This document shows, piece after piece, positions 49,309-50,290 of a DNA stretch of 64,000 bases. Within the stretch, counting starts at the first letter, position 1; each line of letters starts with the position of its first letter. The position numbers were made by a program, and so were the translations under genes. This stretch comes from Gillisia sp. (GTDB lineage Bacteria; Bacteroidota; Bacteroidia; Flavobacteriales; Flavobacteriaceae): the NCBI GenBank assembly GCA_024635655.1, contig JAGXIL010000018.1, forward strand, positions 1 to 64,000. Reading direction: 5' to 3'. The notes below the pieces were generated by a model. That model made no database searches. It saw nothing but the letters and a program-made list of their open reading frames with translations, and had not been told where the DNA came from.

Positions 49309-49415
49309 CGTCACCCTGATTTCATTTCATGGTCTAATCCGGTTTGAGGGGAGAACTGGCGAGAATGGTGGTGCTGATCAACAATATTAGATGCTGAAAC
49401 GAGTTCAGCATGACG
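49309..49415 (+). repeat. 107-bp palindromic element, copy 4
   Basis: CGTCACCCTGAT at the left with a mutated arm (TTTCATGGTCT), and an intact right hairpin ending GCATGACG. It is followed by a linker (GGGCGAGGATGAACGGGTG) and a CT tract. Confidence 0.9.
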
Positions 49416-49443
49416 GGGGCGAGGATGAACGGGTGTTTTATGG

Positions 49444-49497
49444 CTCTCTCTCTCTCTCTCTCTCTCTCTCTCTCTCTCTCTCTCTCTCTCTCTCTCT
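49444..49497. repeat. (CT)27 dinucleotide tract
   Basis: 54 uninterrupted bases of CT between elements 4 and 5. The open frame of alternating Arg-Glu read across it is not a gene. Confidence 0.95.
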
Positions 49498-49499
49498 AC

Positions 49500-49627
49500 C
49501 GTCACCCTGAACCTGCCTGCCGGCAAGGCAGGTTCATTTCAGGGTCTAGCGTGTTTAGAACGGGGTACTGGCGAGAATGGTGCTACTGACCAAGAAAGCT
49601 AGATGCTGAAACAAGTTCAGCATGACG
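49500..49627 (+). repeat. Palindromic element, copy 5, with nested GC palindrome
   Basis: Like the other copies but 128 bp, because a palindrome of CCTGCCTGCC/GGCAAGGCAGG type (about 49510-49534) sits in the loop of the left hairpin. The right end TTCAGCATGACG is 54 bp before the GIY-YIG start. Confidence 0.9.
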
Positions 49628-49681
49628 GAGCGAGGATGATCTAGTTTTCTTAGCAAAAATAGTATTAACTTAAAGGAGCCT

Positions 49682-49969
49682 ATGCAAAAAAGTTATACAT
49701 ACTTGCTATCTAATGCAACTAGAACAATGCTCTATGTAGGTGTAACTTCTGATCTTTACACAAGAATAATGCAACATAAAAATGGTGAAGGTTCTTTATT
49801 CACCAAAAAATATCATTTAAAATATTTGCTGTATTTCGAAGAATTCATCTCAATTAATCAGGCTATATCAAGGGAGAAACAACTGAAGAATTGGCACAAG
49901 GATTGGAAATGGAATCTTATTAGATCGTTGAATCCGGAGTTAAGGGACCTCTTTGAAGGATTACGCTAA
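49682..49969 (+). CDS. Single-domain GIY-YIG nuclease family protein
   Basis: The 95-residue protein is a GIY-YIG fold of the small COG2827/UPF0213-like type: YTYLLSNATRTMLYVGVTSDLYTRIMQHK contains the paired Tyr motifs (here TYL and YVG) and the catalytic Arg in LYTRI; YFEEF, EKQLKNWHKDWKWNLI and LNPELRDLF complete the family pattern. Intact catalytic residues suggest an active nuclease. AGGAGCC before the ATG (49674-49680) is an unusually good ribosome-binding site for this genome. It is flanked on both sides by near-identical repeat blocks, which suggests a link with the repeats. Confidence 0.92.
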   Translation: MQKSYTYLLSNATRTMLYVGVTSDLYTRIMQHKNGEGSLFTKKYHLKYLLYFEEFISINQAISREKQLKNWHKDWKWNLIRSLNPELRDLFEGLR

Positions 49970-50007
49970 TTCTAGTAGTCTTGCTATATTATCATGACTC
50001 TCGTTAA

Positions 50008-50114
50008 CGTCACCCTGAATTTATTTCAGGGTCTGGCGTAATTAGAAGGGGGAACTTGCGAGAAGGTTAGTGCTGACCAAGAAGGTTAGATGCTGAAACG
50101 AGTTCAGCATGACG
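50008..50114 (+). repeat. 107-bp palindromic element, copy 6
   Basis: Perfect left hairpin (ACCCTGAA-TTTA-TTCAGGGT) and right hairpin (ATGCTGAA-ACGAG-TTCAGCAT), ends CGTCA and TGACG. It starts 38 bp after the GIY-YIG stop and is followed by the same linker as copy 4. Confidence 0.93.
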
Positions 50115-50142
50115 GGGGCGAGGATGAACGGGTGTTCTATGG

Positions 50143-50176
50143 CTCTCTCTCTCTCTCTCTCTCTCTCTCTCTCTCT
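50143..50176. repeat. (CT)17 dinucleotide tract
   Basis: 34 bases of CT between elements 6 and 7, in the same position relative to the linker as the (CT)27 tract. Confidence 0.95.
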
Positions 50177-50183
50177 GTCCTAC

Positions 50184-50290
50184 CGTCACCCTGAATTTAT
50201 TTCAGGGTCTGGCGTGGTTTGAAGGGGGAACTAGCTAGAATGTGGGTACTGACCAAGAATGTTAGATGCTGAAACGAGTTCAGCATGACG
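50184..50290 (+). repeat. 107-bp palindromic element, copy 7
   Basis: Both hairpins are intact and the length is exactly 107 bp. It ends 20 bp before the terminator of tsf. Confidence 0.93.

Follow-up and report, generated by a model that had tools for sequence, protein, structure and literature searches.

A described system close to the locus reported here is the REPtron, the combination of a RAYT gene with GTAG REPs, in which a small nuclease gene is flanked by REPs of its own type, families are repeat-specific and copies of the repeats are dispersed. A second comparison is offered by the Ssn proteins, reportedly sequence-specific single-stranded DNA endonucleases of the GIY-YIG type that are said to act on a repeated sequence in Neisseria, and which probably belong to the same protein superfamily as the protein studied here. 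On the side of the repeats, Di Nocera et al. (2013; PMC3733652) described a superfamily of CGTC-tagged REPs that, in the passages of that paper drawn on here, is reported in five phyla, mostly in alphaproteobacteria, in Neisseria as dRS3 (dRS3 repeats being CGTC-1 REPs) and in Bacteroidetes, with G. forsetii among the CGTC-positive species. The same passages leave the mover of these repeats open and associate no transposase with them ('-' in Table 1 of that paper), and the string 'GIY' is absent from its main text. The family UPF0213/COG2827, finally, is represented by the structure entries 1zg2 and 1ywl, both named 'hypothetical', and its Caulobacter genes have been discussed, in the part of PMC1839093 drawn on here, as possible repair endonucleases of open role. 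Here we explore a GIY-YIG gene that lies amidst CGTC-tagged hairpins and propose it as a nuclease partner of such repeats.

Seven related elements of about 110 nt each lie at 47.65-50.29 kb of the window, which is the whole stretch of 64,000 nucleotides that was analysed (Table 1); taken as copies of a 112-nt unit, the remaining six are 66-90% identical to the reference copy. A full element (~107-128 nt) is an inverted pair of two different hairpins, each outer end being a CGTC tag. The left hairpin reads CGTC-ACCCTGAA-loop-TTCAGGGT-C; ~55 nt of spacer separate it from the right hairpin, which is inverted (TGCTGAA/TTCAGCA) and terminates in GACG. The sequence-only reading had seen a GIY-YIG gene of 95 residues sandwiched by two direct element-linker-(CT)n-element blocks, with 27 and 17 CT units and a strong ribosome-binding sequence, and this description held throughout: the open reading frame is recognized by Pfam, the tracts count 27.0 and 17.0 units with 100% matches, and AAAGGAG lies immediately 5' of the ATG. 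Over 138 nt, stretches 49343-49480 and 50042-50179 share 91% identity, and the linker, present twice in the window region, was found at no other place among 263 loci, which argues for a direct local duplication of the block rather than chance. When five elements were folded as single-stranded DNA, four exceeded dinucleotide shuffles in stability (z -2.7 to -4.8), whereas element 4 did not clearly do so (z -1.2).

Table 1. Positions in the window of the nuclease gene, the hairpin elements and the linkers.
Feature	Position	Strand	Remarks
Element 1, right half only	47699..47762	.	
Element 2, left side partial	47924..48020	.	
Element 3, upstream of cyclase gene	48043..48150	.	
Element 4: inverted pair of CGTC-tagged hairpins, left hairpin degenerate	49309..49415	.	
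Linker GGGCGAGGATGAACGGGTG + (CT)27	49416..49497	.	
Element 5: inverted pair; nested palindrome in left hairpin loop	49500..49627	.	
GIY-YIG nuclease gene, 95 aa	49682..49969	+	ORF; PF01541 E 1.9e-14 (Pfam)
Element 6: inverted pair	50008..50114	.	Intact hairpins 50008-50033 (+), 50089-50114 (-)
Linker GGGCGAGGATGAACGGGTG, second copy + (CT)17	50115..50176	.	
Element 7: inverted pair	50184..50290	.	Intact hairpins 50184-50209 (+), 50265-50290 (-)

Judged by their sequence, the window elements fit inverted pairs of CGTC-tagged REPs. The hairpin at 50008-50033 reads CGTC-ACCCTGAA-TTTAT-TTCAGGGT-C, thus an unpaired CGTC tag (TGTC elsewhere) at one end of a short hairpin with a stem of 8-9 bp, an A/T pair first and a loop of 4-5 bases. 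The unpaired CGTC/TGTC tag, the 8-bp stem starting from an A-T pair, the 5-base loop and the occurrence of paired units are all in common with the superfamily as characterized in the passages of PMC3733652 drawn on here, which give it a short tail of three bases, mostly CCA; tails in the window are CTA, CTG and similar, and CCA tails occur at other loci. Pattern CGTCAYSCTGAANNNNNTTCAGSRTC has 22 exact matches in the window genome, the reversed pattern has none, and 30 stretches of that genome match one element at E 1e-3 or better. As in a REPtron, the gene is flanked by type-specific REPs; it differs in being a GIY-YIG gene (PF01541) rather than an HUH tyrosine Y1_Tnp gene, and in a tag that is GTC, mostly preceded by C or T, instead of GTAG. 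A Y1/RAYT transposase was considered as partner of the REPs and rejected, since the genome contains two weak Y1_Tnp genes and the GTC hairpins in their loci are all weak and A+T-rich.

An alignment of the window protein with those of 39 loci from the best 80 of at least 563 shows Y7, Y18, G20, R28, H32, E65 and N84 as invariant. The protein has the domain, the fold and the Tyr/Tyr/Arg/Glu/Asn residues, which we take to be catalytic, of the GIY-YIG nuclease superfamily. Its AlphaFold model has a mean pLDDT of 96 and a sole fold match at E 0.001, 1zg2 (UPF0213), followed by the Slx1 and UvrC N-terminal domains at E 0.01-0.2; at E 0.01 a sequence profile identified 1zg2 and 1ywl as the only solved relatives. 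Slx1 and UvrC nucleases cut branched or bubble DNA, hence a substrate at the foot of a hairpin would fit the window protein. NCBIfam gave no family for the gene at 0.1. A defence-system origin was rejected, PADLOC giving nothing at 0.01, as was a phage origin, for which PHROGs gave one weak partial endonuclease match (E 0.0013).

The window genome has three further matches to the protein. One paralogue is flanked by a different tagged repeat (CGTCAGTTCGAGT...ACTCGAACTGACG) and another by a third repeat type (GTGTCACCCCGAGCGCAGTCGAGGGGTC), while the last adjoins tRNA genes and, by eye, is without such repeats. Just downstream of the genome's third GIY-YIG gene lies, at L003:2268-3243, an apparent transposase gene, presumably of the IS110 type. 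Window positions 1-519 hold 2.9 tandem copies of a 180-bp unit resembling the repeat type that flanks one of the genome's own GIY-YIG genes (L002), the tandem and that gene being on different contigs.

The array is an insertion relative to six congeners. A DUF4260 gene was found in seven congeners and adjoins tsf in six, and the gap between them is 58-70 bp in five of these, 278 bp in one and ~1.1 kb in the window; between the two genes neither a GIY-YIG gene nor a GTC hairpin was found in any of the six. In Bradyrhizobium five GIY-YIG loci occupy one common genomic site, and two other Bradyrhizobium loci and one Afipia locus have only the gene in common with these five, plus a repeat in two of the three, so that the unit is often passed on at a fixed site and is sometimes present at others.

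Association of hairpins with GIY-YIG genes was studied in two samples. The family sample was taken from 60 Flavobacteriaceae genomes, one genome per genus, of which 46 match the GIY-YIG protein at E 1e-3 with one to nine matches each, a few weak ones in long ORFs. Of its 60 loci, 37 are the top match of their genome and 23 are additional matches, chosen by score with the flanks still unread; not included were G001, G011 and G055, at a contig edge, G033, a weak match, and a number of additional paralogues. The multi-phylum sample consists of the best 80 of at least 563 confirmed loci, with one genome per species scanned, and its loci are partly non-independent given the site common to the five Bradyrhizobium loci. 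Strict 7-bp and 6-bp hairpin scans miss long imperfect elements, and several GIY-YIG clades have such longer, imperfect elements; the main test was therefore one of flank sharing, scoring a repeat of score 20 or more common to both 700-bp flanks. Two of the 60 family loci and five of the 80 multi-phylum loci were too close to a contig end for it. Control ORFs were of 90 aa or more and at least 2.5 kb (family) or at least 1.5 kb (multi-phylum, hairpin test) from the gene.

Flank sharing, a measure that counts any repeat including a few non-REP ones (tRNA parts in L074, L082 and L113; tagless repeats in L085 and L088), was found for 36/58 GIY-YIG genes of the family sample versus 7/301 other ORFs (p 2.7e-27), and for 40/75 versus 10/206 among the best 80 of at least 563 loci (p 1.1e-18). 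In the window's genus, for which no control genes were run, 15 of 17 testable loci (19 less two at contig ends, L258 being the L002 gene again) have a repeat common to both flanks, some of these 15 being gene or tRNA duplications rather than REPs. Most family flank repeats are, by eye, tag-stem-loop-stem units, and (C/T)GTC(A/G) or its complement is present in 32 of the 36, where 16.0 are expected from shuffled letters; for the best 80 of at least 563 loci it is present in 33 of 40, with 15.0 expected.

The simpler hairpin scan agrees with this picture. A simple GTC-tagged hairpin within 400 bp is found at 63 of the best 80 of at least 563 loci and is missing in 42/60 family and 16/19 genus loci. 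On both sides it is found at 38 of the best 80 of at least 563 loci, or 40 with a slightly different edge rule, against 4/226 control genes under that same edge rule; in the family sample the figures are 11/60 GIY-YIG versus 1/453 other genes. By phylum, Bacteroidota contribute 31/36 hairpin-positive loci to these best 80 of at least 563, Pseudomonadota 22/31 and the further loci 10/13, the three without a hairpin among the latter being from Bacillota, Acidobacteriota and one unplaced bacterium. Twelve of these 13 are titled as MAGs, and a few of the hairpins at the 13 loci resemble A+T-rich ones arising by chance (L183, L189), so that a spread beyond Bacteroidota and Pseudomonadota is less certain; the evidence there is mostly from single draft contigs.

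GTC is the commonest trinucleotide ahead of hairpins near GIY-YIG genes and is more enriched than the other tags listed. Among the best 80 of at least 563 loci, 155 such tags occur near the gene (62.8 kb) versus 91 far from it (517 kb), a 14.0-fold enrichment; the family sample gives 47 versus 60 (11.8-fold), and a scan with 7-bp stems gives 49 near versus 24 far (16.7-fold). The next enriched tags, TGG, GAG and TAG, are tails of the same hairpin kind read on the opposite strand. Among the best 80 of at least 563 loci the nearest hairpin has its tag pointing outward from the gene in 77/101 cases (p 1.2e-7), the family sample giving 21/29 (p 0.024), and outward tags of this kind resemble the ends of a transposable unit. 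Median hairpin distances, again for the best 80 of at least 563 loci, are 35.5 bp upstream of the start codon (n=56) and 31 bp downstream of the stop codon (n=45). The window itself is an exception, because whole inverted pairs flank its gene and the tags of the two nearest hairpins consequently face it. In L085 (G028) the repeat beside an L002-type gene has GTTGAC at the tag in place of GTCA and the standard pattern has no match in that genome, a possible tag change in one lineage. L075 (G012) holds two GIY-YIG genes of equal score ~1 kb apart within a long tandem array of their repeat.

A clade-specific pairing of GIY-YIG nucleases with REPs is well supported by comparison of repeats and proteins. 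Repeat type tracks protein clade over 59 loci, one locus with a stop being excluded (Mantel 0.31, reached by 0/2000 permutations); distal windows also correlate weakly (0.11, reached in 6/2000). A flank repeat is common to 56% of the 77 most similar between-genome protein pairs versus 9% for windows 3 kb off, and to 2/32 pairs of within-genome, mostly distant, paralogues. On a tree of 78 proteins from the scan of the best 80 of at least 563 loci, from which six of 84 hairpin-bearing loci with in-frame stops in the reading were omitted, the tag base changes 19 times versus 23 or more in 500 shuffles. The stem core (55 loci) changes nine times versus 16 or more, and C versus T in the tag within one stem class (32 loci) three times versus seven or more, each in 500 shuffles. 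Few forks of this tree are resolved, and its use was therefore confined to the label-shuffle test.

Co-occurrence at the level of genomes was determined in the 60 Flavobacteriaceae. The window clade, defined as over 160 bits (next best 126), is present in seven and its hairpin pattern in ten, the pattern being found in 7/7 genomes with the gene versus 3/53 without it (p 3e-7), namely 34 matches in one of those three and one each in two. Restricted to elements at a distance of over 2 kb from the gene, the counts become 5/7 versus 3/53 (p 2e-4), two of the seven having no element beyond 2 kb. A second clade (over 160 bits; next best 141) co-occurs with at least three matches of its own pattern in 9/10 versus 6/50 genomes (p 3e-6), with gene-adjacent matches counted and the three-match cut set after the counts were seen; for at least one match it is 9/10 versus 16/50 (p 0.001). 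Crossed clade/repeat pairs show no association (p 0.35 each). Pairing is loose for the TGTC form of the first pattern which, without a protein cut, occurs in 13 of the 60 genomes: the three that supplied the TGTC-clade loci and ten others. The TGTC and CGTC clades have stem cores in common and differ in the tag base.

Within the window's genus the element pattern is found in 13 of 16 genomes, with up to 209 matches, and a protein of more than 160 bits only in the window's own. Two congeners have 72 and 25 element matches and as best protein one of 37.6 bits or none at 1e-8, and in one congener (L245) a protein of 107 bits has a CGTC hairpin just upstream. In a given genome, elements therefore persist beyond, or exist without, a cognate gene. 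Deletion has removed REPtrons, too, from many E. coli strains, according to the part of PMC3733652 drawn on here, so by analogy loss of the cognate gene after spread of the elements is possible in this genus. The pairing with CGTCA...TGACG elements that the sequence-only reading had proposed is strongly supported by enrichment over other genes in both samples, by the tag rule, by the clade-specific match and by genome-level co-occurrence. Against its worry that the genes might be equally common in element-less genomes, the family counts say they are not, but in the genus the elements are common without a detectable cognate gene.

We consider it probable that gene and hairpins form one module, in which a small GIY-YIG nuclease with a cognate family of CGTC/TGTC-tagged REPs cuts and spreads these REPs. 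The nuclease would bind its own REP hairpin in single-stranded DNA, such as the lagging strand or recombination or transformation intermediates, and cut adjacent to the unpaired (C/T)GTC tag; as the cut ends are repaired or recombined, REPs, and occasionally the gene between two REPs too, would be copied or moved. Its role for CGTC REPs would be that of RAYT transposases for GTAG REPs. GIY-YIG enzymes should cut by hydrolysis and no covalent protein-DNA step is expected of them, unlike RAYT, so that host repair would be needed to rejoin the ends. Mobilization of the elements by the nuclease is what we infer, and the same holds for binding and cutting, for which strand is cut and where, and for the spread of REPs through cutting. 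A wider claim, which we make tentatively, is that CGTC-type REPs and REP-linked GIY-YIG nucleases constitute a second, HUH-independent system of REP mobilization over many phyla, with a lineage-specific hairpin code and a unit REP-gene-inverted REP of ~400 bp.

The pairing of nuclease and repeat would be expected just as well if the enzyme were, like the Ssn enzymes of Neisseria, a sequence-specific single-stranded DNA nuclease with a role in policing or processing DNA that enters the cell, the repeats serving as genome-wide target or self mark and modulating recombination or transformation with no spreading of REPs. A family member among the best 80 of at least 563 loci that lies, in a Neisseria MAG (L173), beside hairpins we take to resemble dRS3 is in line with this, dRS3 being a CGTC-1 REP as noted above. 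We nevertheless regard this as rather unlikely, since a policing role alone leaves REPs flanking the gene unexplained and the compact arrangement REP-gene-REP with outward tags at many loci is the expected look of a mobile unit. It is improbable that another enzyme moves the REPs and that GIY-YIG genes merely insert or survive in REP-rich intergenic regions. Elements are indeed abundant in congeners without a cognate gene, and IS elements target REPs for insertion in some genera (PMC3733652, in the part drawn on here), but repeat type follows protein clade across genomes, paralogues of the same genome seldom have similar repeats (the 2/32 pairs above), and other genes with gaps of at least 100 bp on both sides show the two-sided pattern in 0/75 and 1/53 cases. 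The empty gaps of the six congeners, which are without a GTC hairpin, and the two Y1_Tnp loci with their weak hairpins also argue against such hitch-hiking.

Hairpins near both ends of a gene call to mind transcription terminators or mRNA-stability elements of the nuclease gene, unrelated to its substrate, and many REPs are plausibly transcribed (PMC3733652, in the part drawn on here). Yet the unpaired GTC tag stands out among hairpin tags, the elements lie on both sides of the gene as well as elsewhere in the genome, and Rfam gave no family at gathering score across 47500-50400, all of which makes this very improbable. Still less do we expect a homing-type selfish gene whose nuclease cuts REP-free alleles and spreads by gene conversion, with the REPs as mere homology arms. 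GIY-YIG is a homing-nuclease fold (PMC3161791, in the part drawn on here) and the window array is inserted relative to six congeners, but REPs lie scattered without the gene, and the correspondence of protein clade to repeat suggests that the REP, not an empty site, is what the enzyme recognizes.

Among the publications listed in literature searches, none linked GIY-YIG or COG2827/UPF0213 with palindromic/REP or dRS3 repeats; in view of the reported Ssn activity on a repeated Neisseria sequence, we limit the claim of novelty, provisionally, to the pairing of REP, tag and clade. Given that the same partnership of nuclease and hairpin is seen in other bacterial groups, the enzyme is a candidate for the missing partner of a widespread repeat class. 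If a GIY-YIG nuclease moves CGTC REPs, a large class of genomic repeats gains an enzyme and genes so far discussed as UvrC-like repair nucleases gain a substrate. The REP-gene-inverted REP unit would be one of the smallest autonomous elements, and nuclease lineages would read their own hairpin (tag base, stem core) via a changeable recognition code. The clade-by-clade match of protein and hairpin provides natural variants for learning how a 95-residue protein reads a DNA hairpin, with a hairpin-specific nicking tool as a possible use.

Two further observations were made along the way. The REP hairpin loops at 49500-49545 and 14900-14975 hold a second, unrelated palindrome and look, from their sequence, as if one repeat had inserted in the loop of another. 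A basal class of small GIY-YIG genes has, in five of seven loci, its gene within ~150 bp of a predicted tRNA gene (L004:295-722, L074:6708-7424, L113:6916-7282, L078:6940-7345, L098:6657-7138). No GTC-A...T-C hairpin was found within 700 bp at six basal-class loci examined, and the class may be a tRNA-targeting relative. The neighbouring gene is tRNA-Val or tRNA-Asp in four and is read as tRNA-SeC in L074, and in L074, L082 and L113 a stretch similar to part of a tRNA is present in copies to either side of the GIY-YIG gene.
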